A stretch of 64,000 nt of DNA from Knoellia flava TL1. Its GTDB lineage: Bacteria > Actinomycetota > Actinomycetes > Actinomycetales > Dermatophilaceae. A model generated the notes under the pieces. The model was not told where the DNA came from. It saw nothing but the letters and a program-made list of their open reading frames with translations, and made no database searches. This document shows positions 308 to 63,943 of the stretch, piece by piece. The DNA is taken from positions 186,001 to 250,000 of the forward strand of contig NZ_AVPI01000001.1 in assembly GCF_000768675.1 (NCBI RefSeq), written 5' to 3'. Position 1 is the first letter of the stretch. Every line of letters begins with the position of its first letter. The translations under genes and the position numbers were made by a program.

Positions 308-1137
308 ACCCTGACACGCACGCGCTCGCAGGCGCGTATGCCGTCAACGCCGTGACGGAGGAGGAGCGACGCTCCTTCGAGCTGCACCTCGGTCAGTGCG
401 CGGACTGCCGCGCCGAGGTCGCCGAGCTGCGCGCCGCTGCCGCCACCATCGCGGCGGACGTCGAGCTGCCTCCCCCGCCGGCGCTGCGCGCGTCGGTCCT
501 CTCCGCCGTGGCCCAGACCCGCCAGCTCTCCCCGCTCGAGGAGACCGAGGCGCCTGCTGCCGCTCCTGCCGCGACACCGGCCCCCGACGGGGCGCCGTCC
601 CCGGCCGAGGGGTCCCCGGCTCCGGTCGATGCGCCGGTGGGTGCACCCCTTGACGGCTCGGCGGGTGTCGACGAGCTCGCCGCACGGCGTCGCAACCGGC
701 TGCGTCCCTGGCTCGCGGCCGCCGTCGCCGCCGCCGTCCTCACCGTCGGTGGCCTCGTCTGGCAGCCGTGGCGCGACGACGCCCCCCCGCAGCTCACCGC
801 CACGGAGCAGGTGCTGCAGGCCGACGACGCCCAGCGCCTCGAGCTGCCGATGGGCACCTCCGAGGTCGTCCTCGTCCGGAGCCCGTCGCACAAGCAGGCG
901 GTCTTCGTTGCCGACGCCATGCCGAGCCCGCCATCGGGCAAGGCCTACCAGCTGTGGTTCGACGTCCCCGGGCAGGGCATGGTGAGCGCCGGCATGATCC
1001 CCACGACGGGGTCTGCCGTCACGGTCATGCTCGAGGGTGACGCCTCGACCGCCACCGGCGCCGGCATCACGCTCGAGCCCGAGTCGGGCTCGGAGCACCC
1101 CACGAGCGCCCCGGTCGCCCTCTTCTCGTTCGCCTGA
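304..1137 (+). CDS. rskA: Anti-sigma-K factor RskA
   Basis: Membrane-bound anti-sigma factor that holds the upstream SigK-like sigma inactive until it is cut by regulated proteolysis. Of the 277 residues, the N-terminal cytoplasmic part carries the zinc-binding anti-sigma motif H28-x3-C32-x2-C35. An Ala/Pro-rich linker follows, then one membrane helix at about residues 135-153 (after basic RRRNRLRPW), then an extracytoplasmic RskA domain (about 160-277) ending in APVALFSFA. The start overlaps the sigma stop by four bases, so the pair is an operon and is probably autoregulated by its sigma, as known for SigK. The family match is clear; the inducing signal cannot be read from sequence. Confidence 0.9.
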
Positions 1138-1168
1138 CCGCCGCCTGGCGCGGTGGACAATGGGCGCC

Positions 1169-1755
1169 ATGCGATACGCACTCACCGGCGCCACCGGGTT
1201 CGTCGGCGGCGAGCTCGCCCGCCAGCTCGTCGAGGCCGGGCACGACGTCGTGGCGCTCGTCCGCACGCCGGGCCGGGCCACGGCCCTGAGCGCGCTGGGT
1301 GTCGATCTCGTCGAGGGCGAGCTCGACTCCGACAAGGCGCTCGACCGGCTGCTCGCCGGCGCCGACGGGCTCTTCCACGTGGCCGGTTGGTACAAGCTGG
1401 GGAGGACGTCGCGCGTGGCCACGTCCTCGCGATGGAGCGCGGGGTCGCGGGCGAGGACTACATGCTCGCCGGTGAGCCGGCCACCCTCTCCGAGCTGCTG
1501 GGGCAGGTGGCCGAGGTCGCCGGGACGAAGCCACCGGTGCCCCTCCCCGCCTCGGTCGTCCGGATCACCGAGCGGGTCCTGCGGCCCGTTGCCGGCGCCC
1601 TGCGACTGAGCGGCACCTACCACCCGGAGTCGCTGCGAGCGGCGCTGGCGAGCTACACCGGCACGCGGGCGAAGGCCGAGCGCGAGCTGGGATGGACCTG
1701 CCGCCCGCTCTCGGAGGGCCTCACGCAGACGGTGGTCGCCCTCCGCGCCCGCTGA
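1169..1755 (+). pseudogene. NAD-dependent epimerase/dehydratase gene, internal deletion plus frameshift
   Basis: The first part reads MRYALTGATGFVGGELARQL, an SDR Rossmann start with the NAD-binding GATGFVG motif, and continues to FHVAGWYKLG at about base 1400. From there the frame changes: the next frame continues with VARGHVLAMERG, GEDYMLAGEPATL and a normal C-terminus ending at 1755. Extended SDR proteins of this kind are about 330 residues, and between these two segments they carry roughly 130 residues with the catalytic Ser and YxxxK. All of that is missing here. The join at about 1400-1405 is therefore a deletion whose length is not a multiple of three. The product would lack its active site, so this is a pseudogene unless it is an assembly error. 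An in-frame ATG also exists at 1160. Confidence 0.85.
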
Positions 1756-1918
1756 GCGCGAGACTGAGGCCGACCAACGCCACCGCCGGGCCCACGACCG
1801 CCCAGAGGGTGACGCCCGACATCACACTGCCCCCGAGCACGCCCACGCCCTGCAGGAACCAGACGAGACCGACGACGACCAGCACGAGGCCCAGGACCAG
1901 CCGCGTCCGCGTGCTCAT
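1721..1918 (-). CDS. Small membrane protein, two predicted helices
   Basis: A 65-residue protein with two hydrophobic segments, about residues 7-27 (LVLGLVLVVVGLVWFLQGVG) and 35-56, a short basic N-terminus (STRTR) and a basic tail. It resembles the short conserved actinobacterial membrane proteins of unknown function; no catalytic motif is visible. Its ATG overlaps the TGA of the upstream small membrane protein gene (ATGA), so the two are probably cotranslated. Its 3' end overlaps the tail of the epimerase pseudogene on the other strand by 35 bases. Function unknown. Confidence 0.7.
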   Translation of the reverse strand: MSTRTRLVLGLVLVVVGLVWFLQGVGVLGGSVMSGVTLWAVVGPAVALVGLSLALSGRGGRPPSA

Positions 1919-2170: not shown

Positions 2171-3031
2171 CTACTTCGCGTGCGCGGCGGCGACGACACC
2201 GGAGGCAACGGCTTCGAGGGTCGCGAGCGAGCCGGCATACGGGGACTCGGCCCTGGGCCAGTGGGTGATGGTGTCGGTGAAACCGAGCTCGGCGGCGCGG
2301 CCGGTCATCTCCTCGTAGAGGCCGGCCGACTCGAGCGAGAACCGCGGTGATGCGTCGAGGAGCAGGTAGCGGTCGTGCCCGCCCGTGCCCTCCAGTCCGT
2401 CGAACCGCTCGACGAGACCGGTGACGCCCTCCCACCACTGGTCGAGCGTCTCGGCGCCGCGCACCCCGGTCGTCACCCAGCCCTGGCCGAAACGGGCCGC
2501 GAGCCGCAGCGAGCGCGGCCCGTTGGCGGCGACGACGAACGGCACCCGGTCGCGAACGGGTCCGGGCAGCGTGCGGGCGTCGCGCACGGCGTACCACTCG
2601 CCGTCGTGGTCGACGTGGTCCTCGCGCAGCAGCCGGTCGAGCAGCGGGACGTACTCGTGGAAGCGGTCGACCCGCTCCTTGACCGTGTGCGAATCGCCGA
2701 GCACCTCGGAGTCGAGGTCACCGCCGGTGCCGAGCCCGCAGAGCAGGCGCCCGCCGGACAGGTCGTCGAGGGCGAGGACGTCACGGGCGAAGACGTAGGG
2801 GTGGCGGTAGTTCGGCGACGTGACGAACGTACCGAGCCCGATCGTCGACGTCACGCCGGCCGCCGCGGCGAGCGTCGGCACCGCCGGGAACCACGCGCTG
2901 TCGGGCAGCCCGCCCCACACGAGGTGGTCGTAGACCCATGCGTGCGCGAAGCCCAGCTCCTCGACCGCGCGCCACCGTGGCCCGGCCTCGCGCCAGGGTG
3001 CGTCGGGAAGGATCGAGATCCCGTGTCGCAC
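2171..3031 (-). CDS. Luciferase-like (LLM class) oxidoreductase, probably F420-dependent
   Basis: 286 residues with the luciferase-like monooxygenase TIM-barrel pattern: an N-terminal strand (HGISILPDAPW), WVYDHLVWGG (DH motif), IGLGTFVTSPNYRHP, ALDDLSGGRLLCGLGTGG and PFVVAANGPRSLRLAARFGQGWVT. In actinobacteria this class mostly uses coenzyme F420 or flavin to reduce or oxidise small molecules; the substrate cannot be told from sequence. It starts one base after the SCP_3 gene stop and is followed within 10 bases by a small membrane protein gene, so it lies in an operon. A broken paralogue of the same superfamily is at 19611-20540. Confidence 0.85.
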   Translation of the reverse strand: MRHGISILPDAPWREAGPRWRAVEELGFAHAWVYDHLVWGGLPDSAWFPAVPTLAAAAGVTSTIGLGTFVTSPNYRHPYVFARDVLALDDLSGGRLLCGLGTGGDLDSEVLGDSHTVKERVDRFHEYVPLLDRLLREDHVDHDGEWYAVRDARTLPGPVRDRVPFVVAANGPRSLRLAARFGQGWVTTGVRGAETLDQWWEGVTGLVERFDGLEGTGGHDRYLLLDASPRFSLESAGLYEEMTGRAAELGFTDTITHWPRAESPYAGSLATLEAVASGVVAAAHAK

Positions 3032-3032
3032 G

Positions 3033-3416
3033 TCAGGTCACCTTCTCGGGGTCGGGGAAGAGCGGGAGGTATGCCGTGAGGTCGGCTCGCGTGCCACTCA
3101 CCCGCAGGCGTCCCTCACCGGCCGCCGCGGCCGGGTCGAGCGTGCCGACGACGAGCGCGAGCCATGTCGCGGCGTCGGTCTCGATGACGTTGGGCGGGGT
3201 GCCGCGGCGGTGCTGGAGGCCCTCGATGCACTGGACCACGCCGAACGGGGGCACCCGCACCTCGACACTGCGTCCGGGGGCTCGGGCGCCGAGCTCCTCG
3301 AGCGAGAACCGCACCGCCGTCGCCGTCGTCGTGCGGTCGGCGCCCTCGGGGTCCCCCACCCACGAGGCGAGGGCCGCGCGGCCGGCGGTGACGGGCACAC
3401 GGCGACGGGACGGCAT
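3033..3416 (-). CDS. Sterol carrier family protein (SCP_3-type)
   Basis: 127 residues matching the bacterial SCP-2 orthologue family found in actinobacteria. The diagnostic stretch is VRVPPFGVVQCIEGLQHRRG followed by TPPNVIETDAATWLALV, and the tail DLTAYLPLF is also typical. The family has an SCP-2 fold and is thought to bind hydrophobic ligands; its role is not established. It is the first gene of a minus-strand run followed one base later by the luciferase-like gene. Its ATG lies inside a copy of the dispersed octamer (CGGCATAC at 3411-3418). Confidence 0.8.
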   Translation of the reverse strand: MPSRRRVPVTAGRAALASWVGDPEGADRTTTATAVRFSLEELGARAPGRSVEVRVPPFGVVQCIEGLQHRRGTPPNVIETDAATWLALVVGTLDPAAAAGEGRLRVSGTRADLTAYLPLFPDPEKVT

Positions 3417-3597
3417 ACGGGCATCGTAGGGCGGCGCACCGACGGTCCCGGACGACCACCGTTTCCCGTGATGTCAAAAAAAGTTATGGAAAGGGTGCAG
3501 ACGCCGTCGGCATTGTCGGGCAGCATGGGCCGGGTTGCCGAGCCCCTGCCGGTGACGACGCGCTCACTCACCCGGAGTGGCCGAACCAGGAGTTGGC
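3417..3597. promoter_or_regulatory. Divergent promoter region with an A-tract
   Basis: 181 bases separate the divergent SCP_3 and 5'-nucleotidase genes. Most is GC-rich, but 3473-3491 is clearly A/T-rich, with seven consecutive A residues at 3476-3482. This is the only such stretch nearby and the likeliest place for promoter elements. No -35/-10 pair is good enough to name. The nucleotidase has a usable ribosome binding site (AGGAG at 3589-3593) five bases before its ATG. Confidence 0.4.
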
Positions 3598-5343: not shown

Positions 5344-5365
5344 CCCGCCTCCCTGCACGATCCAC

Positions 5366-5398
5366 GCACCCCCCGCGCCACGTCGGCGCGGGGGGTGC
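5366..5398 (+). terminator. Intrinsic terminator after the 5'-nucleotidase gene
   Basis: Perfect 14-base-pair stem: GCACCCCCCGCGCC (5366-5379), loop ACGTC, then the exact complement (5385-5398), followed by TT. It sits 22 bases after the nucleotidase stop. The T-run is short, as is common in high-GC actinobacteria. Confidence 0.85.
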
Positions 5399-5411: not shown

Positions 5412-6212
5412 GTGACCGACGAGCCCGTCTTCGAGCAGGACGGCGACGTCACGTGGATCAGCGTCGGCGGCCACGCCCAGTCGGCCGTCTGCCTCGACGA
5501 CCCGACGCTGCTCGTCTTCGAGTACGTCCAGCAGCTCGCCCTCGCCGTCGACGCGGTCTTCGCCCCGCCCGCTCCGCTGCGCGTCACCCACGTCGGTGGC
5601 GCCGGGCTGACGCTGGCGCGGTGGATGCAGGTCACCCGACCGGGATCGCCGCAGATCGTCCTCGAGCCCGACGTCGCCCTCACCGAGGCTGTCCGGCGCG
5701 AGCTGCCGCTGCCCCGCGGGCACCGCATCCGGGTCCGACCGCAGCGTGGCGAGGACGGCGTCTCCGGGCTCGCCTCCTCGAGCGCGGACCTCGTCGTCCT
5801 CGACGCGTATGCCGGCGGGCAGGTCCCTGCCTCCCTCACCACCGTCGAGTGGTTGGGCGAGGTCGCGAGGGTCCTCGCGCCCGGCGGCCTCCTCCTCGCG
5901 AACCTCGGTGACCGACCCGGGCTCAGGTATGCCGCACGCGTCGCCGCGGGTGCCCGGGAGGCCATGGGCGCGGGTGCGCGGACGGCATACGTGGGGTTGC
6001 AGGGGGTGCTCAAGGCGAAAGGTTTCGGCAACGTCGTCCTCGTCGCGTCACGCGACGAGCTGCCGGTCGACGACCTGCGGCGGGCGGCGGCGCGTCAGCC
6101 GCTGCCGACGGGGGTGGTCCCGCCGAGCGAGGTGGTGGCGCGGAGCGCGGGGGCGCAGCCGTTCAGCGCGGCGTCCGGCGACACCGCCATGTCGCCCGCC
6201 CCGCCCGACTGA
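5412..6212 (+). CDS. Spermidine synthase-like SAM-dependent protein
   Basis: 266 residues with a Rossmann-like methyltransferase/spermidine synthase fold. The cofactor loop is VTHVGGAGLTLARW at about residues 59-72, an acidic residue follows strand 2 (IVLEPD, about 80), the catalytic region is LVVLDAYAGG (about 127-136), and EVARVLAPGGLLLANLGDR comes after. The family includes aminopropyltransferases, but many stand-alone actinobacterial members have no proven polyamine role and no decarboxylase partner is nearby. The tail after about 225 is Pro/Ala-rich and probably disordered. It starts at GTG 5412, 13 bases after the preceding terminator, so it has its own promoter. Substrate uncertain. 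Confidence 0.75.
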   Translation: MTDEPVFEQDGDVTWISVGGHAQSAVCLDDPTLLVFEYVQQLALAVDAVFAPPAPLRVTHVGGAGLTLARWMQVTRPGSPQIVLEPDVALTEAVRRELPLPRGHRIRVRPQRGEDGVSGLASSSADLVVLDAYAGGQVPASLTTVEWLGEVARVLAPGGLLLANLGDRPGLRYAARVAAGAREAMGAGARTAYVGLQGVLKAKGFGNVVLVASRDELPVDDLRRAAARQPLPTGVVPPSEVVARSAGAQPFSAASGDTAMSPAPPD

Positions 6213-8509: not shown

Positions 8510-12421
<3,912 letters not shown>

Positions 12422-12795: not shown

Positions 12796-13046
12796 CAGTC
12801 GAGATCGGGATATGTGCGGTTACGCGACCACTCCGCGAGCCCCGCCAGGTCGTCATCCTCGAGGGCTCCCGCGGCCTTCTGCGCCATGAGCCGCTGGACT
12901 TCCTCGGCATACAACCTCCGGCGCAGCTCGCGCTCGAGGGCGGACTCGACCAGCTCAGCGCGGCTGCGCGCCTGCCCGGACTTCACCTGGTCGTCGAGGA
13001 AGGCGACGAGGCGGTCGTCGATGCGGACGGAGATCTGCGTGCTCAC
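12795..13046 (-). CDS. Ribbon-helix-helix antitoxin
   Basis: 83 residues from a GTG at 13046. The N-terminus (MSTQISVRIDDRLVAFLDD) followed by QARSRAELVESALERELRR is a typical MetJ/Arc/CopG ribbon-helix-helix DNA-binding domain. The C-terminal 35 residues (EEVQRLMAQKAAGALEDDD, then LAGLAEWSR) are the acidic toxin-binding tail. It should dimerise, repress its own promoter and neutralise the MazF partner. Translational coupling through the ATGA overlap supports a type II toxin-antitoxin module. Confidence 0.85.
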   Translation of the reverse strand: MSTQISVRIDDRLVAFLDDQVKSGQARSRAELVESALERELRRRLYAEEVQRLMAQKAAGALEDDDLAGLAEWSRNRTYPDLD

Positions 13047-15178: not shown

Positions 15179-16633
15179 ATGCCCGGCATGACCTCGACGG
15201 CCGCCGTGCCGACCCCCGCGCCTCCCGGAGGGTCAGCTCCCGCGGCCGCACCTGAGCGCGCCGAGCGCCTGCTCAGCGCGCGACACCTGCCGGTGGCGGT
15301 CGGCATCATCGCCCTCGTCACCCTCGGCGCCTTCGAGAACCGGGCTGTCATCAGCATCATGCCGACCGCCACCCGGGCCCTCGATGGGCTCGCGTGGTTC
15401 GGCGCCGCCAACGCGGCCTCGATGGTGACCTTCATGGTGGCCGTCGTCGTCGCCGGCCGCTGGGTCGACCGCGTCGGGGCGCGCACGGTCCTGCTCACCG
15501 GGCTGGGGACGTTCGCTGCCGCCCAGGTCGTCACCGCGGCTGCCCCGTCGATGGCCGTGCTCCTCCTCGGGCGCGGGCTCTCCGGCATCGCCGAGGGGCT
15601 CATCGACGTCTCGACGCTCGTCTTCGCCGCCCGGGCACTGCCCGAGCACCTGCGCGCCAAGGTGTTCGCGACCTTCGCCGCCGCCTGGATCCTGCCGAGC
15701 CTCCTCGGCCCCGGGGCCGCAGGTGCGGCCGAGGCGCTCGTCGGCTGGCGGCTCGTCTTCCTGCTGCCGACCGTCCTGCTCGTGCCCGCACTCCTCCTGC
15801 TCCTGCCCGCGCTGCGCCGCAACGTCCGGCACGACGACGGCCAGGCCACCAGAGCTGCGGACGCAAGCCCGACGCCGGCGCCGCTCGCCCCGGCCATCGG
15901 GCTCGCCACGGCCGTCGCCCTGCTCAGCATCGGCGGTCCGCTCGCCTTCGATGGCGGGGACCACCGGCTCGCCGGGCTCGTCGCCCTCGCGGTCGGCGGA
16001 CTCGCCCTCGTCGCCACGGTGCGCGCAGCGCTGCCGCCCGGGACGCTCACGGTGGCACGCGGCATACCGGCAGTGGTCGCGCTGCGCACGCTCCTCGTCG
16101 TCGCGTTCGGCGGCATCGGTGGCTACCTGCCTCTCATGCTCGACGTCACCCACGACGTCGGGCCGGCGCTCGCGGGCATCAGCCTCAGCGTCACCGGCGT
16201 CTTCTGGGCCGTCGGCTCGGCGGTCCACAGCCTCGACGCCGTCCAACGACGCCTCGACGCCGCGGCCCGGGTCCGGCTCGGCCTCGCGCTCATCGTCGTC
16301 GGGGGGACCGGCCCGCTGCTCATCGCGCTCGGCGTCCTCGGGCTCGTGCCGGGGCTCGTCGGGTGGGCGCTCGCCGCGACCGGCATGGGGCTCTCCTCCC
16401 CCAGCCTGGCGACGGAGATCTTCACCCTCGCCGAGCCGCACGAGCAGGGGCAGGCAACCGCCGCGTCGCAGATCGGCGCGAGCCTCGGCAGCGCGCTCAC
16501 GACAGCCGGCGGGGGCGCGCTCATCGCCGCCCGCCACGACACCCTCGACGGAGGGGTCTTCGCGCTACTCATCGGTATCTCGATCGCGGCCGCCGCGACG
16601 GCCCTCACTCTCACGCACCGGCTGCGCGCGTAG
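15179..16633 (+). CDS. MFS transporter, probable SoxR-controlled drug exporter
   Basis: 484 residues with about 14 hydrophobic segments, starting ARHLPVAVGIIALVTLGAFE. MFS motif A is seen as GRWVDRVGARTVLL (about 96-109), and GRGLSGIAEGLIDVSTLVFA lies in helix 4-5, like DHA2-type or related multidrug exporters. It is divergent from soxR across a SoxR-type operator, so it probably exports redox-active compounds under SoxR control. Two ATG codons (15179, 15188) can start it; neither has a clear ribosome binding site and the promoter lies very close, so a leaderless message is possible. Substrate not predictable. Confidence 0.85.
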   Translation: MPGMTSTAAVPTPAPPGGSAPAAAPERAERLLSARHLPVAVGIIALVTLGAFENRAVISIMPTATRALDGLAWFGAANAASMVTFMVAVVVAGRWVDRVGARTVLLTGLGTFAAAQVVTAAAPSMAVLLLGRGLSGIAEGLIDVSTLVFAARALPEHLRAKVFATFAAAWILPSLLGPGAAGAAEALVGWRLVFLLPTVLLVPALLLLLPALRRNVRHDDGQATRAADASPTPAPLAPAIGLATAVALLSIGGPLAFDGGDHRLAGLVALAVGGLALVATVRAALPPGTLTVARGIPAVVALRTLLVVAFGGIGGYLPLMLDVTHDVGPALAGISLSVTGVFWAVGSAVHSLDAVQRRLDAAARVRLGLALIVVGGTGPLLIALGVLGLVPGLVGWALAATGMGLSSPSLATEIFTLAEPHEQGQATAASQIGASLGSALTTAGGGALIAARHDTLDGGVFALLIGISIAAAATALTLTHRLRA

Positions 16634-17304: not shown

Positions 17305-18000
17305 GTGCCCGAGATCCGCGTCGCGTCCGTCAGCCACTCCTTCGGCGACGGCGCGACGCGGCGACCGGTCCTGCGCGACGTCGACGTCACCCTCACCGAG
17401 CACCGCATCGGGGTCGTCGGGGCCAACGGCTCGGGCAAGTCGACCTTCGCCCGCCTGCTCAACGGCCTCGTCCACCCGGACTCGGGCACGGTGACGGTCG
17501 ACGGCCGCGACACCGTCCGCGACGGCCGCGAGGTCCGCCGGCGCGTCGGCTTCTGCTTCACCGACCCCGACGCCCAGATCGTCATGCCGACCGTCGCCGA
17601 GGACATCGCCTTCGGGCTGCGCCGCCGCGGTCTCACCAAGGACGAGGTGCGCGCGCGCACCCAGGGTGCGCTCACGGCATACGGGCTCGAGGGTCACGCC
17701 GACCACCCGGCCCACCTGCTCTCGGGCGGGCAGAAGCAGCTCCTCGCGCTCGCCAGCGTCCTCGTCACCGACCCCGACCTGCTCGTCCTCGACGAGCCGA
17801 CGACCCTGCTCGACCTGCGCAACGCCGAGATGGTCCGGCGGCTCGTCGACGGGCTCTCGCAGCAGGTCGTCCTCGTCACCCACCACCTCGACCTGCTCGA
17901 CGGCTTCGACCGCGTGCTCGTCTTCGACGACGGTCGCGTCGTCCACGACGGCACGCCCGCCGACGCCGTCGCGGCCTACCGCTCGCTCGTCGCCCGCTGA
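17305..18000 (+). CDS. bioM: Biotin ECF transporter ATPase BioM
   Basis: 231 residues from GTG 17305. ABC ATPase motifs: Walker A GANGSGKST (39-47), Q-loop FTDPDAQIVMPTVAEDIAFG, signature LLSGGQKQ, Walker B LLVLDEPTTLLDL and switch VTHHLDLL. The close match to EcfA/CbiO-type ATPases and the bioY and bioN neighbours give the BioM call. Its TGA overlaps the ATG of bioN by one base (TGATG), so the two are coupled. Confidence 0.94.
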   Translation: MPEIRVASVSHSFGDGATRRPVLRDVDVTLTEHRIGVVGANGSGKSTFARLLNGLVHPDSGTVTVDGRDTVRDGREVRRRVGFCFTDPDAQIVMPTVAEDIAFGLRRRGLTKDEVRARTQGALTAYGLEGHADHPAHLLSGGQKQLLALASVLVTDPDLLVLDEPTTLLDLRNAEMVRRLVDGLSQQVVLVTHHLDLLDGFDRVLVFDDGRVVHDGTPADAVAAYRSLVAR

Positions 18001-18608
18001 TGCCCGTCACCGCGGTCCCGCTCTACCTCCCCGGCGCCTCACCGGTCCACCGGCTCGGCGCCGGACCCAAGCTGCTCCTCCTGCTCGCGACGGGCGTGAC
18101 CCTCGCCGTCTGGCGCTCGCCGTGGCAGGTCGCCGTCGCGCTCGGAGCCGTCCTCCTCCTGTATGCCGTGGCGCGCCTTCCCTTGCGCGTGCTGGCCCGG
18201 CAGGTGGTCGCCCTCGCCTGGGTCGCCGTGCCGCTGCTCGCCTTCCAGTGGGTGTTCGCGTCGTGGCGGACGGGAGTCGGGGTCGTCGGCTCGTTCGTCA
18301 CGCTCGTCCTGCTCGCCGGGCTCGTCACGTTGACGACGCGAACGACGGCCATGGTCGACGCCGTCGTGCGGGTGTGCGGGTGGCTGCGGAAGTTCGGGGT
18401 CGACCCCGAGCGGGTGGGGCTCCTGCTGGCGCTGGGCATCCGGTCGGTGCACGTCGTCCTCGGGCTCGCGCAGGAGGTGCGCGAGGCGCAGCACGCGAGG
18501 GGGCTGCGGTCGAGCCCACGAGCGTTCGCCGTGCCGCTCATCGTCCGGTCGCTGCGACACGCCGACCGGCTCGGCGAGGCGCTCAGCGCCCGCGGCGTCG
18601 ACGACTGA
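18000..18608 (+). CDS. bioN: Biotin ECF transporter transmembrane subunit BioN (EcfT-type)
   Basis: 202 residues with four to five membrane helices. Two Ala-Arg-Gly coupling motifs sit at 166-168 (EAQHARG) and 197-199 (EALSARG). These are the hallmark of EcfT/CbiQ proteins: they contact the ATPase and pass on its movement. The ATG overlaps the bioM stop. Together with bioY and bioM this completes an energy-coupling-factor biotin importer. Confidence 0.93.
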   Translation: MPVTAVPLYLPGASPVHRLGAGPKLLLLLATGVTLAVWRSPWQVAVALGAVLLLYAVARLPLRVLARQVVALAWVAVPLLAFQWVFASWRTGVGVVGSFVTLVLLAGLVTLTTRTTAMVDAVVRVCGWLRKFGVDPERVGLLLALGIRSVHVVLGLAQEVREAQHARGLRSSPRAFAVPLIVRSLRHADRLGEALSARGVDD

Positions 18609-25563: not shown

Positions 25564-26958
<1,395 letters not shown>

Positions 26959-44608: not shown

Positions 44609-46009
44609 GTGTCGGAGCAGCACCGACCCGCGCGGGGCCTCAGTGACGAGAGGGCCGCGCGCCGGGTCCTCACGATGTCGACGACGGCGTTCACGGTGAT
44701 GTTCGCCGTGTGGCTGATGTTCGGGATCCTCGGCATCCCGATCCGGAAGGAGTTCGGCCTCACCGACGTCCAGCTCTCGTGGCTGAGCGCGGTGGCGGTC
44801 CTCAACGGGTCGCTCTGGCGCCTACCGGCGGGGATGGTCACCGACCGCATCGGCGGTCGCAAGGTCTTCGCAGCGATGCTCGCGTTCACGGCCGTGCCGG
44901 CATACCTCGTGTCCCGGGCCGAGAGCTACGGCCTGCTGCTCGTCCTCGCGTTCCTCGTGGGGTTCGCGGGCAACTCCTTCAGCGCCGGCATCTCGTGGAA
45001 CTCGGCGTGGACCCCGCGTGAGCGGCAGGGCTTCGCGCTCGGGGTCTTCGGCGCGGGCAACGTCGGCGCGTCGGTGACGAAGTTCATCGGCCCGGCGCTC
45101 ATCACCGGCACCGCCGGTGCGACGTACTTCGGCGTCCAGGGTGGGTGGCGCATCGTCCCCGTCCTGTATGCCGTCCTCCTCCTCGTGCTCGCGGCTCTCG
45201 TCCTCGTCGTCACCCCTGCCGAGGACCGCAAGCCCGGTCGCGGGCGGCCGCTGCGCGAGCAGCTCCAGCCGCTGCGCCGGCTGCGGGTGTGGCGGTTCAG
45301 CCTCTACTACGTCGCGGTCTTCGGCGCCTACGTGGCGCTGGCCGCATGGCTGCCGAAGTACTACGTCGACAACTTCGACGTGGGCCTCGGCACGGCGGCC
45401 CTGCTCACCGCGACCTTCATCTTCCCGGCGTCGCTGCTGCGCCCGGTCGGTGGCTGGTTCTCCGACCGCTGGGGTGCGCGGCGCGCGATGTACTGGACGT
45501 TCGGCGTGATGATGGCCTCCACGCTCTTCCTGTCGATGCCCGGCGGCCACATCGTCCTCGAGACCCGGGACGGGCCGAAGAACGTCCTCCCCTACGAGAT
45601 CGGCATCTGGCCCTTCGCCATCGCCGTCTTCGTCCTCGGCTGCGCGATGGGCGTGGGCAAGGCCGCCGTCTTCAAGCACATCCCCGAGTACTTCCCCAAG
45701 GACGTCGGCGCCGTCGGCGGGCTCGTCGGGATGCTCGGCGGCCTCGGTGGCTTCTTCCTCCCGCCGCTCTTCGCCTACGGGCAGCGTTGGTCCGGCCTGC
45801 CGTCGAGCACGTTCTTCGTCCTGTTCCTGCTCACCGCCGCGTGCAGCGTGTGGATGCACTGGACCGTCGTCCACATGCTCCACGAGGAGTCCCCGGAGCT
45901 CGCGACCGAGCTCGAGCGGCCGAGCCGCACGGCTGACGCCGCAGCCGCACCCACCGAACCCACTGACACGACCGGGCCGCACCGCGTCCCCGAGGAGGCA
46001 CGAGCATGA
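44609..46009 (+). CDS. narK: Nitrate/nitrite transporter, NarK1-like
   Basis: 466 residues from GTG 44609, preceded by GGAAGGAG with a five-base spacer. Twelve membrane helices. NarK-family signatures: GFAGNSFSAGISWNSAWTPR (nitrate signature, helix 5) and GLVGMLGGLGGFFLPPLFAY (helix 11). This shape matches the type 1 proteins thought to bring in nitrate with protons. Its end overlaps the second narK by four bases, forming a two-gene operon opposite narGHJI. The last 40 residues are a disordered Thr/Ala/Pro tail. Confidence 0.9.
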   Translation: MSEQHRPARGLSDERAARRVLTMSTTAFTVMFAVWLMFGILGIPIRKEFGLTDVQLSWLSAVAVLNGSLWRLPAGMVTDRIGGRKVFAAMLAFTAVPAYLVSRAESYGLLLVLAFLVGFAGNSFSAGISWNSAWTPRERQGFALGVFGAGNVGASVTKFIGPALITGTAGATYFGVQGGWRIVPVLYAVLLLVLAALVLVVTPAEDRKPGRGRPLREQLQPLRRLRVWRFSLYYVAVFGAYVALAAWLPKYYVDNFDVGLGTAALLTATFIFPASLLRPVGGWFSDRWGARRAMYWTFGVMMASTLFLSMPGGHIVLETRDGPKNVLPYEIGIWPFAIAVFVLGCAMGVGKAAVFKHIPEYFPKDVGAVGGLVGMLGGLGGFFLPPLFAYGQRWSGLPSSTFFVLFLLTAACSVWMHWTVVHMLHEESPELATELERPSRTADAAAAPTEPTDTTGPHRVPEEARA

Positions 46010-47443: not shown

Positions 47444-47488
47444 GCGTCCAGCGAACGCCCAGCGGCACGGCATACCCTTGCGCCCGTG

Positions 47489-49186: not shown

Positions 49187-49810
49187 TCAGAGGGTGATGA
49201 GTCCCTGCCCGTATGCCGCGGTGACGGCTGCCGTGCGGTCGGTCACCTCGAGCTTGGCGAAGATCCGCAGCAGGTGCGTCTTGACCGTCGCCTCGCCGAT
49301 GTAGAGCTCACGACCGACCTCGGCGTTCGAGAGCCCGCGGGCCACCGCCCGCAGCACCTCGAGCTCGCGCGGGGTCAGCTCGGAGCGCGCCGGGGCCCGC
49401 AGCCGTTCGGCGAGACGCGCCGCGACGGGAGAGGCGAGGACGGTCTCGCCCAGCGCCGCCCGCCGGATCGCGTCGGCGAGGACGTCGGGCGGGGTGTCCT
49501 TGAGCAGGTAGCCCCGGGCTCCCGACTCGACCGCCCGCACGATGTCGGCGTCGGTGTCGTAGGTCGTGAGGACGAGCACCTGCGGCGCGTCCGGCAGGTC
49601 ACGCAGCCTGGCGGTCGCGTCGGCTCCGTCCATGACCGGCATACGGAGGTCCATGAGGACGACGTCGGGCGAGAGACGCGGGGCGAGCGCCAGCGCCTCG
49701 GCTCCGTTGCCGGCCTCGCCGACGACCTCGACGTCGTCGAGCTCACCGAGGAGGGCGACCATGCCGGCCCGCACGACGGGGTGGTCGTCGACGACGAGGA
49801 CGCGGATCAT
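49187..49810 (-). CDS. Response regulator, NarL/LuxR family
   Basis: 207 residues. Receiver domain with D8-D9, phosphoacceptor D54 (VVLMDLRMP), T in VLTTYD and K in YLLKDTP. The C-terminal LuxR helix-turn-helix reads LTPRELEVLRAVARGLSNAE, VGRELYIGEATVKTHLL. Its ATG overlaps the histidine kinase stop by four bases. It is the last gene of a four-gene operon with an ABC transporter, the usual layout for systems that sense membrane or antibiotic stress. Confidence 0.92.
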   Translation of the reverse strand: MIRVLVVDDHPVVRAGMVALLGELDDVEVVGEAGNGAEALALAPRLSPDVVLMDLRMPVMDGADATARLRDLPDAPQVLVLTTYDTDADIVRAVESGARGYLLKDTPPDVLADAIRRAALGETVLASPVAARLAERLRAPARSELTPRELEVLRAVARGLSNAEVGRELYIGEATVKTHLLRIFAKLEVTDRTAAVTAAYGQGLITL

Positions 49811-51021
49811 CGGGGCAGCTCCATGACGAGTCGGGTGCCGCGGGGGTCCCCGCGGCCGATGCTCACCTCTCCGCCGAGCTCGGCGGCGCGGGCGCGCAGG
49901 CCGTCGAGGCCGAAGCCGGGCGGCGTGGTCGCGGGATCGAAGCCGGCACCGTCGTCGGTCACCTCGAGGGCGACCCGCTCGGGTTCGTAGGCGAGGGTCA
50001 CGGACGCGGACGACGCTCCGGAGTGCCGCCTCACGTTCGACAGCGCCTCCTGCACCCCGCGCAGCAGGACGACCTCGGCGTTGCCGCCGAGCGGTGCCGG
50101 CTCCCCCTCGACCGACGACGTGACCCGTATGCCGGTCTCTCGCGTCACCGTGTCGGTGAGCCTCACGAGGGCCTCCACGAGGGTGCGCGACTGGAGGTGG
50201 CCGGGCGTGAGCTCCGCGACGATGACCCGGGCCTCGGCGAGGTTGTCGACGGCCGTGCCCTCGATCATCGACAGTCGCTCGCGGGCCGTGGCGACGTCGC
50301 CGCGGTCGAGCGCCGAGGTCGCTGCCCGCGACAGCGCGATGACCGAGGTGAACCCCTGCGCCAGGGTGTCGTGGATCTCGCGCGAGAGGCGGCTGCGCTC
50401 GTCCTGCACGCCCTGTGCGCGCTCGACGGCGGCGAGCTGCGCCCGGGTCGACCGGAGCTCGTCGATGACGGCGGCCCGGCGCTCGGCCTCGCCGATGATG
50501 CGGTGGATGAACATGCCGAGCGCGGCCGAGAGCGCGAACGAGATGACGACCGAGACGAGCGCCCCGGGGACCTCGGCGCCGGGGTCGTCGGCGGGGGCGA
50601 CGGCAGCGGTGAAGAGCGCGAGCAGTGCAAGCCCCGTGCCGATGAGCGCCGGGCGCACCTCGAAGGTCGCCCAGATCTGCGGGAAGAGGCAGAAGAAGAG
50701 CAGCCACGACTCGAACTCGGGGTCGAGGGCGATGATCGTGAGGAGGCACGTCCAGGCACAGAGCTGGTAGAGGACGGCATACACGGTCTCCTCGCGCATG
50801 ATCGCGCGGCGACCGAAGAGCGTGTAGGCCAAGGCGACCCCGCCGAGAAGGACGAGGGTCGGCCAACGGCCGTGCGGGCCGGGCGGCTCGAGGAGGGCGA
50901 CGACGACGGCGGTCGCGACGAGGGCGTAGCAGCCGAGGTGCCACCACTTCGCCTGGCCGCGCCACACCGCCGCGAGCTGGTCGCTCGAGAGCTCAGCGGG
51001 CGGGGCGGGGGCCGGGTTCAC
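49807..51021 (-). CDS. Sensor histidine kinase, HisKA_3 type
   Basis: 404 residues from GTG 51021. About five membrane helices in the first 180 residues with little extracellular sequence, suggesting an intramembrane sensor. The dimerisation motif SREIHDTLAQGFTSVIALSR gives phospho-acceptor H217. The ATP-binding domain has VQEALSNVRRHSGASSASV (N box) and VTDDGAGFDP, then GFGLDGLRARA. It phosphorylates the overlapping response regulator. It sits seven bases after the ABC permease gene. Confidence 0.92.
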   Translation of the reverse strand: MNPAPAPPAELSSDQLAAVWRGQAKWWHLGCYALVATAVVVALLEPPGPHGRWPTLVLLGGVALAYTLFGRRAIMREETVYAVLYQLCAWTCLLTIIALDPEFESWLLFFCLFPQIWATFEVRPALIGTGLALLALFTAAVAPADDPGAEVPGALVSVVISFALSAALGMFIHRIIGEAERRAAVIDELRSTRAQLAAVERAQGVQDERSRLSREIHDTLAQGFTSVIALSRAATSALDRGDVATARERLSMIEGTAVDNLAEARVIVAELTPGHLQSRTLVEALVRLTDTVTRETGIRVTSSVEGEPAPLGGNAEVVLLRGVQEALSNVRRHSGASSASVTLAYEPERVALEVTDDGAGFDPATTPPGFGLDGLRARAAELGGEVSIGRGDPRGTRLVMELPR

Positions 51022-52787: not shown

Positions 52788-53564
52788 TCAGAAGGTCGTG
52801 TAGCCGCCGTCGACGACGACGACGGAGCCGGTCATGAAGCTCGAGGCGTCGGAGGCGAGGTAGACCACGGTGGGGGCGATCTCCTCGGGGAGCGCGTAGC
52901 GCTGCATCGGGGCGTCGTCGATCCACCGGGGCTTGAACGCCGGGTCGTCGACGGGTGCCATCTCGGTCCTGACGTATCCCGGGGCGACGGCGTTGACGCG
53001 GATGCCGAGGGGTGCCCACTCCGCCGCGAGCGACTTCGTCAGCTGGTGCACGGCCGCCTTCGACGCGTTGTATGCCGGCTGCCACTGCGGGCGGTTGACG
53101 ATGAGTCCCGAGATGGAGCCGATGTTGACGATGACGCCGCTGCCCCGGTCGGCGAAGTGTCGGCCGGCGACCTGGCTCATGAGCCACAGGCCCCGGACGT
53201 TGGTGTCGAAGACCTCGTCCCACTCGTCGTCGGGGACCTCGAGCGCAGGGCGGTGGACGCAGGCGCCGGCATTGTTGACGAGGACGTCGAGCCGGCCGGT
53301 CGCCTCGACCGCGGCCTCGACGGCTCGGGTCACACTGTCGCGGTCGGTGACGTCGAGCCCGAGCCCGACGACGGTGCGTCCGGTCTCGGCGGCGAGGTCG
53401 GCGGCAGCGTCCCGCGAGGCCGCCTCGTCACGGGCGCCGATGACGACGTCGGCCCCGGCCTCGGCGAGCGCGCGGGCGAAGGCGAGGCCGAGCCCGCGGT
53501 ATCCGCCGGTGACGAGCGCCGTGCGGCCGGCGAGCGAGAACGTGTCGAGAACAGTCGGACTCAT
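52788..53564 (-). CDS. Short-chain dehydrogenase/reductase
   Basis: 258 residues, classical SDR. NAD(P)-binding TGGYRGLG (with the T-G-x3-G-x-G pattern), LVNNAGACVHRPALEVPDDE, catalytic Ser in NIGSISGLIVNRPQWQPAYN and YNASKAAVHQLTKSLAAEWA (Y-x3-K), plus IRVNAVAPGYVRTEMA. The W-Q-P-A-Y before the catalytic Tyr is like gluconate and sugar-alcohol dehydrogenases; the substrate is not fixed. It has its own upstream region with an inverted repeat. Confidence 0.88.
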   Translation of the reverse strand: MSPTVLDTFSLAGRTALVTGGYRGLGLAFARALAEAGADVVIGARDEAASRDAAADLAAETGRTVVGLGLDVTDRDSVTRAVEAAVEATGRLDVLVNNAGACVHRPALEVPDDEWDEVFDTNVRGLWLMSQVAGRHFADRGSGVIVNIGSISGLIVNRPQWQPAYNASKAAVHQLTKSLAAEWAPLGIRVNAVAPGYVRTEMAPVDDPAFKPRWIDDAPMQRYALPEEIAPTVVYLASDASSFMTGSVVVVDGGYTTF

Positions 53565-54876: not shown

Positions 54877-54988
54877 GGGAACTCCCCTGTCGGTGGCGCT
54901 TCGCTCGCGATCCTAGGACCTGTATGCCGTCCGCCCGGGGATGCGCGCACGTTCGGCTCGGACGGCGCTCGGGACGGCGGCGTCCGGC

Positions 54989-56340: not shown

Positions 56341-56546
56341 GGCGACACCGTATGCCGGACCCTCACCGTCCCGACCGGCTCCGTGACCGACGTCGTATGC
56401 CGTCCGCGCACCTCGACTGCCCGTCGAGGGCCTCGTCGCGCGCGTCGAGGCCTGCAGCCGGGGTACTACGACCATCGCCCAATGGCACGCGCCCCCGGGT
56501 CCGGATGACGCTGATCACCTCACCTCCCCCCGACCAAGGAGACATC

Positions 56547-57083: not shown

Positions 57084-58583
57084 GTGGCAGTCGCTCCCGA
57101 CCCGGCCGCCGCGGCTCCCGCCGCGGCGGCCCAGCCGCGTCCCGGCGACCTCGGTGAGGACCGCAGCCTCGGCGACGAGCTCCTGTCGCCTCCGCCGAGC
57201 GTGCCGACCGAGCCGCACGGGCCGTCCGAACCGGACTGGACGCTCGTCACCACGCCGGGCACCCGCACCGACCTCTCCCCCGTCGTCACGCCGCGGCGCG
57301 TCCTCACCCAGATGGTCGGCGCCCTCGCGCTCGTCCTCGTCGTCGTCGCCGCCCTCGCGACCTTCGCGGCCGGGCGGCTCGCGGAGCGGGAGGCCGTCAA
57401 CGACGCCGCCGCCGCCGCCGACCTCATCGCCCAGGCGGTCATCACGCCCCTGCTCACCGACGACCTCCTCGACGGTGTCGACGGCTCGTCCGCGGCCCTC
57501 GACGAGGTCGTGCGCGACGTCGTCATCGGCGACGAGATCGTCCGGGTCAAGATCTGGTCGCCCGACGGGACGATCGTCTACGCCGACGAGGCCCACCTCA
57601 TCGGGCGCACGTTCAGCCTGTCGCAGGACCAGCGGGAGGCGCTCGCGGACCCCCGCACCATCGCGGAGGTGTCGCAGCTCGACGAGACCGAGAACGAGTT
57701 CGAGACGGGCAACCGCCTCCTCGAGGTCTACCGACCGGTGTGGACACCCACCGGTCGCGAGATGCTCTTCGAGACCTACACGGCATACGACGTCGTGAGC
57801 GAGCGGGCGGCCGAGCTGAGGCGAGGGTTCGTCGGGGTGACGCTGAGCAGCCTGCTCCTGCTCGTCGTCCTCATGACGCCGGTCCTGTCGCGGCTCCTGG
57901 GACGGCTGCGCACCGTGTCGGAGCACCGCGAGCGCGTCCTCGAGCGCTCGCTCGGGGCGTCGGACGCCGAGCGTCGCCGCATCGCCGGCACCCTGCACGA
58001 TGGTCCCGTGCAGGAGCTCGTCGCCTCGTCGCTCGCCGCCTCGGTCGCCGCCGAGCAGGCCGCCGCGCGCGGGGACTCGGCGCTGGCCGCGTCGTTCGAG
58101 CGCGTCGCGGCCTCGACCCGGGGCAACGCGAGGGCGCTGCGCTCGCTGCTCGTCGAGATCTATCCCGAGAGCCTCACCGGCGCCGACCCGGCCACGGTCC
58201 TGGCCGACGTCGCCGCCACCGCCCACGGCCGGGACGTCGACGTCGAGCTCGACGTCGACCCGTCGATCCGGCTGCCCGAGGACGAGCAGCGACTCATCCA
58301 CCGGATCGCCCAGGAGTGCCTGCGCAACGCCGCGACCCACGCCGCGCCGTGCAGGCTCCTGCTCCGCCTCGCCCGCGAGGACGGCGCCGTCGTCCTCGAG
58401 GTCGCCGACGACGGCCGGGGGTTCGACCCCGACGTGCTCCGCGACCCACCCGCCGGCCACCTCGGGCTCAAGGTCCTCGCCGACCTCGCCTCCGACGCCG
58501 GTGCCGAGCTCGCGGTCCGCACCGCACCCGGTCGCGGCACCCGTTGGCGGCTCCGGCTGGCCGACTCCGGGGCGGCGTCGTGA
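57084..58583 (+). CDS. Sensor histidine kinase with extracytoplasmic domain
   Basis: 499 residues. A Pro/Ala-rich cytoplasmic start of about 70 residues, helix 1 (TQMVGALALVLVVVAALATF), an outside domain of about 150 residues (VKIWSPDGTIVYADEAHLIG, like a PAS/CACHE sensor) and helix 2 (VGVTLSSLLLLVVLMTPVLS). Then the HisKA_3 motif ERRRIAGTLHDGPVQELVAS (H305) and an ATPase domain (AQECLRNAATHAAPCRLLLR, EVADDGRGFDPDVL, GHLGLKVLADL). It abuts the repeat protein gene and overlaps the response regulator by four bases. Confidence 0.9.
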   Translation: MAVAPDPAAAAPAAAAQPRPGDLGEDRSLGDELLSPPPSVPTEPHGPSEPDWTLVTTPGTRTDLSPVVTPRRVLTQMVGALALVLVVVAALATFAAGRLAEREAVNDAAAAADLIAQAVITPLLTDDLLDGVDGSSAALDEVVRDVVIGDEIVRVKIWSPDGTIVYADEAHLIGRTFSLSQDQREALADPRTIAEVSQLDETENEFETGNRLLEVYRPVWTPTGREMLFETYTAYDVVSERAAELRRGFVGVTLSSLLLLVVLMTPVLSRLLGRLRTVSEHRERVLERSLGASDAERRRIAGTLHDGPVQELVASSLAASVAAEQAAARGDSALAASFERVAASTRGNARALRSLLVEIYPESLTGADPATVLADVAATAHGRDVDVELDVDPSIRLPEDEQRLIHRIAQECLRNAATHAAPCRLLLRLAREDGAVVLEVADDGRGFDPDVLRDPPAGHLGLKVLADLASDAGAELAVRTAPGRGTRWRLRLADSGAAS

Positions 58584-59984: not shown

Positions 59985-60850
59985 GCGCCCGCACCACCGA
60001 GCGCACCCTGTCGGTCCTCGCTCCGCACGGCGCGACCCTCGCCGCCACCGAGTACCTGCCGGCCGGTGACCCCGACGAGGGCGCGCCCACCGTCGTCCTC
60101 GCCCACGGCTGGACCCTGGCCCGAGCGAGCTGGGAGCCGGTCGTGCGAGAGCTGCTGTCGCACAGGGCCGTTCGCGTCGTCACCTATGACCAGCGCGGAC
60201 ACGGCCGCTCCACGTGGGGCTCGGTCCGGTCGCAGTCGATCAGGGCCCTCGCCGACGACCTCGCAGCCGTCGTCCAGGCGGTCGCACCGACCGGACCGCT
60301 CGTCCTCGGCGGCCACTCGATGGGCGGCATGACGGTCCTCGCGTATGCCGGCCGCCACCCGTCCGTGGTCCGCGACCGTGTCCGTGGGGTCGCCCTCGTC
60401 TCGACGACGGCCACAGTCGAGGGTCGGCCGGAGGTGCGCGGCGAGGCACTCGCGATGGCTGTCGCAGCGCGAGTTCCGCTGCTGCGCATGGGGATGTTCG
60501 TCCCGCGCTCGGTCCTGCGCAACCTCAACTTCGGCGAGAACCCCGACCGGACCCACGTGCGGTCGACGGTCCGCACCATCGCGAGCACCTCGCTCGCGAC
60601 GACCGGTCGCTACTTCGCCTCGATCCGCGACCACGACGAGACCGAGGCCCTCGCCGTGCTCGACGGCGTGCCCACCCACGTGCTCGTCGGGACGAAGGAC
60701 CGGCTCACACCGGTGAGGTGGGCACGCAGCCTGCACGACGGCATACCGGGTTCGCGGCTCACCGTCCTCCCCGGCAAGGGGCACATGCTCACGCACGAGG
60801 CGACCGACACCGTCGCCGACGCCCTCATCGACCTCGTCGACGCGCGCTGA
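59981..60850 (+). CDS. Alpha/beta-fold hydrolase
   Basis: 289 residues from GTG 59981. VLAHGWTLARASWEPVVREL carries the oxyanion-hole HGW; the nucleophile S113 is in GGHSMGGMTVLAYAGR; the acid is in VGTKDRLTPVRWARSL; the His is in PGKGHMLTHEA. The cap region (about 140-200) is typical of esterases and haloperoxidase-like enzymes. Substrate not predictable. The gene ends three bases before the converging secreted S51-type gene, with no room for a terminator. Confidence 0.88.
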   Translation: MSARTTERTLSVLAPHGATLAATEYLPAGDPDEGAPTVVLAHGWTLARASWEPVVRELLSHRAVRVVTYDQRGHGRSTWGSVRSQSIRALADDLAAVVQAVAPTGPLVLGGHSMGGMTVLAYAGRHPSVVRDRVRGVALVSTTATVEGRPEVRGEALAMAVAARVPLLRMGMFVPRSVLRNLNFGENPDRTHVRSTVRTIASTSLATTGRYFASIRDHDETEALAVLDGVPTHVLVGTKDRLTPVRWARSLHDGIPGSRLTVLPGKGHMLTHEATDTVADALIDLVDAR

Positions 60851-62704: not shown

Positions 62705-62759
62705 GGAGCCCAACCTAGGGCGCCGCCGCCGATCCCGCGCGGCGACCGCGCCCCTCCGC

Positions 62760-63404
62760 TCAGCGGAGCGTGCGCTCGTCGCCCAGCCGGGCGGCGACCT
62801 TGTCCGGCAGCCGGCGGTTGAGGGAGAAGAGCCGCCCGAGGACGGGCATGAGGACGATGTTGAGACCGTGCAGGATCCCGATGATGAGAAGGATTCCGCC
62901 GATCCGGATGAGCTCGAACTTCACCTGCGCGGCGGTGACGTCGGTGATCGGCTGGGCCAGGGCCCAGTCGGGGTTGGGCGCCACCTGGAGGGTGAAGAGG
63001 ATGAAGGCCGCGAAGATGAGGTAGTAGACGATGTCGGTGAGGACGATGTAGCTCTTGCCCGTGAGCGGGTTGTCGTGGAAGACGTCGGCGGCGTAGGCGC
63101 GGCCGAACCGCTTGATGAACGGCCCGAGCCACAGCGCCATGCCGAGGAGGACGAGGTTCGTGGCGACTTCGAGGATCCACCAGGGCATGGCGAGGGTTCC
63201 GTTCTCTGTGCGGGGGGTGAGGGTGAGGACGAACGTGGCCACCACGACGACGACGAGGACCGCACCGAGCGACCATCGCAGCGCGGCGGAACGTCGGGCA
63301 CGGTCGGCGTCGATGCTGTCGACGACGCGCTCGAAGAGGTCGGGCGAGGGTTCGACGGGGTAGTCGTGCAATGCGCGGGTCAGCCGGTCCTCGAGGTCGC
63401 TCAT
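62760..63404 (-). CDS. Membrane protein paired with an ECF sigma factor, possible anti-sigma
   Basis: 214 residues. The cytoplasmic start (MSDLEDRLTRALHDYPVEPS, PDLFERVVDSIDADRARRSA) looks like the short helices of anti-sigma regulators. Then come four to five membrane helices (WSLGAVLVVVVVATFVLTL, ILEVATNLVLLGMALWLGP, IVYYLIFAAFILFTLQV, GGILLIIGILHGLNIVLMPV) and a basic tail. No zinc-binding H-x3-C-x2-C motif is visible. Its ATG overlaps the sigma stop, so the two are coupled and a regulatory link is likely. Confidence 0.7.
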   Translation of the reverse strand: MSDLEDRLTRALHDYPVEPSPDLFERVVDSIDADRARRSAALRWSLGAVLVVVVVATFVLTLTPRTENGTLAMPWWILEVATNLVLLGMALWLGPFIKRFGRAYAADVFHDNPLTGKSYIVLTDIVYYLIFAAFILFTLQVAPNPDWALAQPITDVTAAQVKFELIRIGGILLIIGILHGLNIVLMPVLGRLFSLNRRLPDKVAARLGDERTLR

Positions 63405-63943
63405 CGGTTGCCCTCCAGGGTCTCGGCGAGGCCGGCGAGGCCGCGCTGCAGATGGGTCTTCACGGTGTTGTTCGACAGGCCGAGGGTCTCGGCGATGTCG
63501 GGGATGGACAGGTCGAGGTAGTAGCGCAGGGTCACGCAGTCACGTTGGCGGCGCGGCAGGTCCCGGAGCGCGTCGATGACCTCCTGGCGTTCGGCCCGCG
63601 TCGCCGCGTCCTCCTCGGCGGAGGGCGCGTCGGGCAGCGCGGGCGGTCGGTGGCGCAGCGAGACCAGTCCCCTGCGGTTGTGGTCGCGCGCGAGGTTGAT
63701 GACGATCGAGCGGAGGTATGCCGCCGCGCTGCCGCCGCGGCGGATGCGACCAGCGTTGCGGGACAACCGGATGAACGCTTCCTGGACGAGGTCCTCGGCG
63801 GCGGTGCGGTCGTCGAGATAGAACCGGGCGAGCCGGGTGAGTGAGGTGGCCTCCTGGGCGAAGAGGGTGATGACGTCGGGGTCCGTCCCAGCACCCACAC
63901 CGGGGTCGGGCGCGGCCGTCCGGCGCTCGGCGAGGGTCTCCAT
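63401..63943 (-). CDS. ECF RNA polymerase sigma factor
   Basis: 180 residues. Region 2: ATSLTRLARFYLDDRTAAED, LVQEAFIRLSRNAGRI and YLRSIVINLARDHNRR. Region 4: LRDLPRRQRDCVTLRYYLDL, SIPDIAETLGLSNNTVKTHL. Length and layout fit SigE-like ECF factors of actinobacteria. It is cotranscribed with the membrane protein gene (ATGA overlap). The 57 bases after its start to the window edge are promoter region with no further gene. Confidence 0.9.
   Translation of the reverse strand: METLAERRTAAPDPGVGAGTDPDVITLFAQEATSLTRLARFYLDDRTAAEDLVQEAFIRLSRNAGRIRRGGSAAAYLRSIVINLARDHNRRGLVSLRHRPPALPDAPSAEEDAATRAERQEVIDALRDLPRRQRDCVTLRYYLDLSIPDIAETLGLSNNTVKTHLQRGLAGLAETLEGNR

Follow-up and report, generated by a model that had tools for sequence, protein, structure and literature searches.

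A dialect-forming octamer in Knoellia flava and its family as a candidate DNA uptake sequence in Actinomycetota

Why does one octamer recur throughout a stretch of an actinobacterial chromosome, apparently overriding codon choice? The question is raised by 64,000 nucleotides of Knoellia flava TL1 (contig NZ_AVPI01000001.1, positions 186,001 to 250,000 of the forward strand; this whole stretch is called the window below), in which an initial annotation, made from the letters alone, had noticed the over-represented word GTATGCCG and proposed three explanations for it: a methylation or restriction-avoidance context, a binding site of a nucleoid protein, and a word of the DNA uptake type. We followed the word through the genome, the genus, the family and a sample of the order, and our analysis suggests that it may form the core of a self-recognition sequence for DNA uptake, which takes different forms, or dialects, in related genera.

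The window holds exactly 50 copies of GTATGCCG between positions 336 and 63723, 26 on the plus and 24 on the minus strand, in agreement with the count first given, and the impression of an excess far above chance is borne out by 100 dinucleotide-preserving shuffles of the window, which give a mean of 0.87 copies and at most 5. The core is sharp at both ends, since GTATGCC is followed by G in 50 of its 51 occurrences and TATGCCG is preceded by G in 50 of 51, and none of the single-base variants exceeds 13 copies. By the gene calls of this study, made with a simple GC-frame caller that is rough and cuts some genes short, 44 of the 50 copies lie in genes.

The enrichment, which the initial annotation had proposed to follow beyond the window, is genome-wide: 2541 copies (1268 plus, 1273 minus; about 0.7 per kb) are found in the 3.56-Mb genome, against 94 (44 and 50) of the reversed word taken as control. 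Counts here and below were obtained by pattern searches and from about 2.8 Mb of sequence stretches. In a 446.8-kb sample of this genome, 325 copies occur, of which 318 could be placed, 244 in coding sequence and 74 outside called genes, with 7 near an end or straddling a boundary. Shuffling synonymous codons in the 413 called genes gives a mean of 20 and a maximum of 31 copies (100 shuffles), and a shuffle which also keeps the neighbouring bases gives a mean of 31 and a maximum of 41 (50 shuffles), compared with the 244 observed; a codon shuffle, likewise proposed at the outset, thus does not reach a similar count. Composition, dinucleotide usage and codon choice are ruled out as explanations by these shuffles and those of the window. 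In fact, the word imposes codons that the genome otherwise avoids, as had been claimed for TAT, GCA and ATA. TAT makes up 232 of 2251 tyrosine codons (10%) in the 413 genes, yet where the context is G|TAy|GCC|G it accounts for 115 of 133; GCA makes up 870 of 16995 alanine codons, but 79 of 124 in the context xCG|GCn|TAC; and 18 of the only 28 ATA codons stand in the context C|GGC|ATh|C.

Along 290 kb of contig C1, in which the window lies, plus and minus copies are balanced in each of ten successive 29-kb steps. The spacing of the copies there is over-dispersed, with a coefficient of variation of 1.18 that is partly inflated by one word-free stretch of about 19 kb (about 30.3-49.6 kb of the contig, outside the window). 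This one stretch has a GC content mostly of 0.61-0.69 and is probably acquired DNA; the few family matches among ten open frames in or near it are two DUFs, a chaperone-like family, OmpA and a weak WD40 match in a 1475-aa protein.

The word is more than its core. In 60 intergenic copies from gaps of 20-500 bp between called genes, T stands at position +8 in 73% and is followed by a stretch leaning to C-C-G-C, with preferred bases reaching about nine positions 3' of the core; TCCG continues 19 of the 60, and a full example, GTATGCCGTCCGCGCACC, is found at position 56395 of the window. The word is therefore built of eight strictly kept core bases and, less strongly marked, a 3' extension that leans to T-C-C-G-C in intergenic copies. 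In samples from the congeners, T at +8 is seen in 64% of 25 intergenic copies, and TCCG in just 5 of the 25. The gaps of the Knoellia flava genome are also the denser part, with 60 copies in 25.0 kb (2.4 per kb) compared with 0.63 per kb in genes.

Conservation was examined in the region of the window, where 185 of 231 words aligned to the eight congeners are exact. The proportion of exact words per congener genome is 74-86%, compared with 24-38% for all octamers of the same alignments. Within the words identity is 94.6%; elsewhere the value is 82.5%, falling to 78.9% at a distance of 11-30 bp. In five word-poor relatives, none of 55 aligned sites carries GTATGCCG. For neisserial uptake sequences, strong conservation of the word is reported where the surrounding core genome is slightly permissive (PMC2397512), and the present words, strongly conserved within permissive flanks, show a similar pattern. 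Together, the codon shuffles, the genome-wide count and the conservation among congeners support action on the DNA word and not on protein, as the initial annotation had supposed.

The distribution of the word follows the family. All nine genomes of the genus are rich in it (1971-3277 copies), and among 186 genomes of the family, in 53 genera, 107 are rich, with at least 0.13 copies per kb, 62 fall below 0.03 and 17 are intermediate (0.03 to 0.13), these cut-offs being our own and genome sizes being rounded. The sample of the order comprised 297 genomes, and none of its 273 genomes from other families is rich; the largest count among them is 177 in one genome (G395; genomes and genera bear the labels of this analysis, G and g with a number), in which the reversed word occurs 135 times. 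Inside otherwise rich genera the word has been lost in G016, G083 and G113.

Other words were sought in samples of 15-100 kb from word-poor relatives, after which the 186 genomes were all scanned for four patterns. One of these, CCCCCTTCG, has 797-1939 copies in 19 genomes (all 16 of g27 and all 3 of g35) and at most 80 in the other 167; these 19 genomes hold 7-41 copies of GTATGCCG. In g27, the next base after CCCCCTTCG is T in 68% of a small set of 16 intergenic copies and the one after that is C in 93%, so that the word ends in CGTC as in GTATGCCGTCC. GGATGCCG is abundant in seven genomes (3816 and 3838 copies in g9, 3949 in G178, 4480 in G042, 3619 in G043, 2195 in G044 and 2099 in G045) and reaches at most 1336 in the other 179; its flank in G178 is a different one, with G at +8 in 83% of 12 copies. 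Two of these genomes, G044 and G045, hold two words at once, with 1217 and 1189 copies of GTATGCCG in addition. For the genera with GTATGNCG, the pattern GTATG(A/G/T)CG is counted 3273-5477 times in g14, 3747 in G167, 2147 in G093, 1155-1641 in g40 and 1151-1550 in four of the five members of g4, compared with 53 in the genome of the window, so that position 6 is free there. The fourth pattern, GTAGACC, occurs 2110 times in G016, 476-651 times in its four congeners and at most 916 times anywhere else, and is a weaker candidate, seen in one genome, because a 7-mer has a high background.

Some further words were considered as dialects. Words like GTACGCCG looked enriched in G022, G083, G010/G012 and G023, but their variants are enriched too, and they were taken as codon effects; CAGCCCCA in G113 is unproven, and GTATGCGG in genus g13 is a possible further dialect. 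A 40-kb sample of one g13 genome, G033, contains 11 copies of GTATGCGG (0.8 expected) and 8 of GTATGCGGT (0.2 expected). In 100 kb of G016, 20 copies of GAAGGTGTA (0.1 expected) and 32 of AACACCGGC (1.2 expected) point to a dispersed repeat family.

On a tree of ComEC from 47 genomes, six word labels need 13 changes, compared with a mean of 23.6 for shuffled labels (none of 200 shuffles as low), and the dialects appear to cluster on the tree and to follow phylogeny. The labels were assigned by us from the counts, with g41 as a borderline case and with g3, g10 and g13, of intermediate counts, labelled as having none; support is below 80 for 11 of the 44 inner branches (drawn open), G016 and G113 are not on the tree, and ComEC is itself a competence gene. 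The two CCCCCTTCG rows group together with support 99, next to a GTATGCCG genome (support 87). For GGATGCCG, two changes are required even when only supported branches are considered. The sister of g15, which has GGATGCCG, is genus g46 (G152-G163), to which the label of no word was given; in g46 this word is counted 1210 times in G153 and 1336 times in G158 compared with 614-949 in the ten others, and might be a decaying dialect.

Machinery for DNA import is encoded almost throughout the family. ComEC was found in 180 of the 186 genomes and TadE in 181, including in both cases the genome of the window, where TadE lies near a contig end. In that genome, a ComEA-like protein with SLBB and helix-hairpin-helix domains is encoded directly upstream of ComEC, and a flp-rcpC-tadA-tadB/C locus encodes a Flp pilin, RcpC, a ParA-type ATPase, a T2SSE ATPase and two T2SSF proteins. 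Being near universal, ComEC and TadE do not explain by their presence which genomes carry the word, and they were set aside as uninformative correlates; PilM, a marker of the type IVa pilus, is almost absent from the family, and this pilus was dropped as a correlate too. When genes beside comEC (ten word-rich and ten word-poor genomes) and genes of the tad stretches (22 genomes) were clustered, neither comparison gave a cluster shared by every GTATGCCG genome and missing from every other, both comparisons being weak because the gene caller cuts some genes short. Two clusters from the tad stretches (median 207 and 646 aa) are in all five CCCCCTTCG genomes compared (g27) and in none of the 17 others; since the five belong to one genus, shared synteny may explain them.

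How, then, would the word be kept? Our favoured explanation, to which we give a probability of a little under 0.6, is that GTATGCCG is the core of a dialect-forming DNA uptake sequence. A surface DNA receptor, the first candidates being a Tad minor pilin and the ComEA-like protein, would prefer DNA that carries the word, and such DNA would be taken up and recombined more often than word-free DNA. At sites that permit it, which includes the choice between codons, biased conversion would then spread the copies born by mutation and restore them. If the preference of the receptor shifted, a new word would accumulate and the old one decay, which would yield dialects, and if preference or competence were lost, the words would fade. 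Dialects, tolerated loss, mixed genomes, conservation within permissive flanks, the asymmetry of a non-palindromic word and the lack of polarity match uptake sequences better than the other classes considered. The one word-free stretch of contig C1, if it is acquired DNA, would fit as well. Of the three proposals made at the outset, the uptake-type word is thus the one that gains, from the dialects, the 3' extension, the conservation and the presence of ComEC and TadE; restriction avoidance would not by itself explain an enrichment of about 50-fold, while methylation and a chromosomal protein stay at lower probabilities.

The uptake signal sequence (USS) of the Pasteurellaceae consists of a core and a weaker flanking consensus, and its sequence is unrelated to the present word. 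As here, divergent dialects within one family are reported for it (PMC12616744). The DNA uptake sequence (DUS) of the Neisseriaceae resembles our word in being short and non-palindromic, in its thousands of copies (2257-5918 in some genomes), in its conservation in the permissive core and in its clade dialects, eight of which are reported to follow phylogeny, with one genome carrying two at once (PMC3630211, PMC2397512). In Neisseria, tracts of gene conversion are also reported to be enriched in such words (PMC2397512). Unlike this proteobacterial system, the present word, with its candidate role in uptake, is found in Actinomycetota together with tad genes, without a PilM match in this genome and without a known ComP-like receptor, and its dialects include a largely different core, CCCCCTTCG. 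One neisserial form, the AT-DUS, has the prefix letters AT. The extended word GTATGCCGTC has the letters ATGCCGTC in common with it (GCCGTCTGAA, as printed in PMC6370729), which is probably a coincidence. Another comparison is with Micrococcus luteus, of the same phylum, which has comEA and comEC orthologs and for which tad genes are reported as required for its Flp/Tad-pilus transformation; a text search of that paper found no claim of a preferred word (PMC4322843).

Several observations weigh against an uptake sequence. Word-poor genomes have ComEC and TadE just as word-rich ones do, and no gene tested tracks the word. The receptor named in Neisseria is a type IV minor pilin (PMC6370729), and that of the USS is predicted, in a study that searched for coevolution, to be another, PpdA/ComN (PMC12616744), while just 7 of the 186 genomes, the genome of the window not among them, have a PilM match, which exceeds the cut-off in 6; hence we say that the system may work like DUS and USS and not that it is a member of them. 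The excess in intergenic gaps is weak in the congener samples, with 25 copies in 25.8 kb (0.97 per kb) compared with 0.80 in genes. Moreover, 41 word-poor genomes fall outside the counted dialects, and samples of 44-95 kb from 14 of them gave no comparably strong word.

The most serious rival, which we nevertheless consider unlikely, is drawn from the highly iterated palindrome HIP1 of cyanobacteria: an orphan methyltransferase or a restriction-modification enzyme would recognise the word, repair or protection linked to methylation would create and keep it, and the dialects would be enzyme specificities. HIP1 is likewise a highly iterated octamer, relatives are reported to carry alternate over-represented words with a matching methyltransferase, and a repair model has been proposed (PMC4390886), which counts against our preferred explanation, as the switching and loss of dialects seen here would fit this origin as well. 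However, those words are palindromes tied to methyltransferases, while GTATGCCG, GGATGCCG and CCCCCTTCG by inspection are not palindromes, and the 3' preferences, reaching about nine positions, exceed the sites of most methyltransferases, which are shorter than this extended flank. In addition, conversion of near-words would suggest their depletion, but the single-base variants as a group stand at expectation in the 413 genes (278 seen, 265 expected). Taken singly, GCATGCCG is low (34 compared with 58 expected), and GGATGCCG (82 and 41), GTAGGCCG (48 and 24) and CTATGCCG (18 and 4) are high.

It is rather improbable that the word is a binding site, about every 1.4 kb, of an abundant chromosomal protein for nucleoid or domain organisation, kept by selection. 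A non-polar, dispersed and conserved word with an asymmetric extension in intergenic copies would suit such a protein, but the uneven spacing (the coefficient of 1.18, with its inflation by the word-free stretch) does so less well. Losses in many lineages and complete switches would be hard to square with thousands of sites changing together, and the difference in words between related genera makes such a site less likely.

A signal for recombination (like Chi) or segregation (like KOPS, the FtsK orienting polar sequences) is very improbable. Signals of both kinds are strand-polar relative to replication, and the balance of the strands, both in the ten 29-kb steps and in the genome total, agrees with the initial annotation in showing no such polarity, so that replication-polar signals were rejected. 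The argument in their favour is that signals of this sort are known among over-represented oligomers, Chi being a named example (PMC4390886). Finally, an artefact of composition or codon pairs, or a dispersed repeat family, is hardly credible, having nothing beyond the high G+C content on its side, while the codon shuffles fall short nearly sixfold or more even at their maximum (41 and 31, compared with 244), no relation between the flanks of the 50 copies is apparent to the eye, and the 273 genomes sampled from other families of the order show no enrichment.

The 50 copies in the window, listed here as exact string matches with readings from our own gene calls, span 336..63723 at 0.78 per kb. 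Among the 44 in called genes, 18 read Tyr-Ala (TAT GCC). On the plus strand these are 336..343 (GCG TAT GCC GTC, in the called gene 304-1137 on the plus strand), 5807..5814, 5927..5934, 18161..18168, 23483..23490 (in a HelR-like gene), 31949..31956, 45166..45173 and 60343..60350; on the minus strand, 2233..2240 (called gene 2171-3031, minus), 12199..12206 (purL), 12905..12912, 26271..26278 (purA), 27174..27181, 29841..29848, 30854..30861, 33870..33877, 37741..37748 and 50775..50782. Another 16 read Ala-Tyr (GCA TAC), with 3069..3076 (called gene 3033-3398, minus), 10460..10467 and 11837..11844 (both purL), 20740..20747, 30241..30248, 34051..34058, 43591..43598 (narG), 49211..49218, 53070..53077 and 63716..63723 on the plus strand, and 5983..5990 (3' flank TCCGCGCACC), 17675..17682 (called gene 17305-18000, plus), 19948..19955, 24055..24062 (HelR-like gene), 44898..44905 and 57781..57788 on the minus strand. 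Six read Gly-Ile (GGC ATA), at 16060..16067 (minus, with the rare ATA), 36123..36130 (plus), 39629..39636 (plus, narH), 41565..41572 (plus, narG), 50127..50134 (plus) and 60739..60746 (minus), and three read Arg-Met-Pro (CGT ATG CCG), all on the minus strand, at 10268..10275 (purL), 38704..38711 and 49637..49644; the readings given at the outset for these nine places all agree with ours. The last coding copy, 26966..26973 (plus, 3' flank TCCGCCCACC), reads Arg-His-Thr at the 3' end of the called gene 26959-27813 (minus).

Intergenic copies exist, as had been stated, but the number of five given for them does not hold under our calls, by which six copies lie in no called gene. These are 3411..3418 (minus), identical in 7 of 7 aligned congeners, 47468..47475 (minus), 54922..54929 (plus, 3' flank TCCGCC), 56350..56357 (plus), 56395..56402 (plus, with the full extension TCCGCGCACC) and 21865..21872 (minus, 3' flank TCCGCGGACC), the last of which straddles the start of the called gene 20533-21870.

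Some side observations were made on the same DNA. Two genes for HelR/HelD-like RNA polymerase recycling ATPases lie about 7.5 kb apart in the window (23262-25475, plus, and 32935-34968, minus), with scores below the curated cut-offs. The purL gene (8510-12421 of the window) encodes a single fused chain in this genome; 106 of the 186 family genomes have a purL match at E <= 1e-100, some of them in pieces, and 80 are without one, a difference that may reflect an early split within the family. In stretches of the genome of the window, ACTTATTG and AATAAGT occur 10 times each, where 0.1-0.2 are expected, as a putative small repeat family.

To our knowledge, no DNA uptake sequence system has been described outside Proteobacteria, and sequence-specific DNA uptake is known to us from two Gram-negative families only. 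A literature search gave no report of an uptake word in Actinomycetota among the titles and abstract openings listed (preprints and most subscription journals lie outside its coverage), and among the matches listed for the string GTATGCCG, which does occur in papers, none is by its title on a genomic word. It is about an even chance, on the present comparative analysis, that we are dealing with the first such system outside Proteobacteria, a Tad-pilus-based and dialect-forming word across a family of Actinomycetota, in which receptor specificity would have switched several times, once to a largely different core. If true, this would be a third origin of sequence-specific uptake, in high-GC Gram-positives and with a different type of pilus, and a comparison of the three could address what makes some competent bacteria favour DNA of their own kind, how thousands of words can change in step with a receptor, and which protein of the filament reads the DNA. 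If the origin is linked to methylation instead, we know of no earlier counterpart of HIP1 that is not a palindrome. In practice, transformation of these bacteria may become easier with the word, and the family, with different words in related genera, mixed genomes and losses inside genera, offers a natural experiment.

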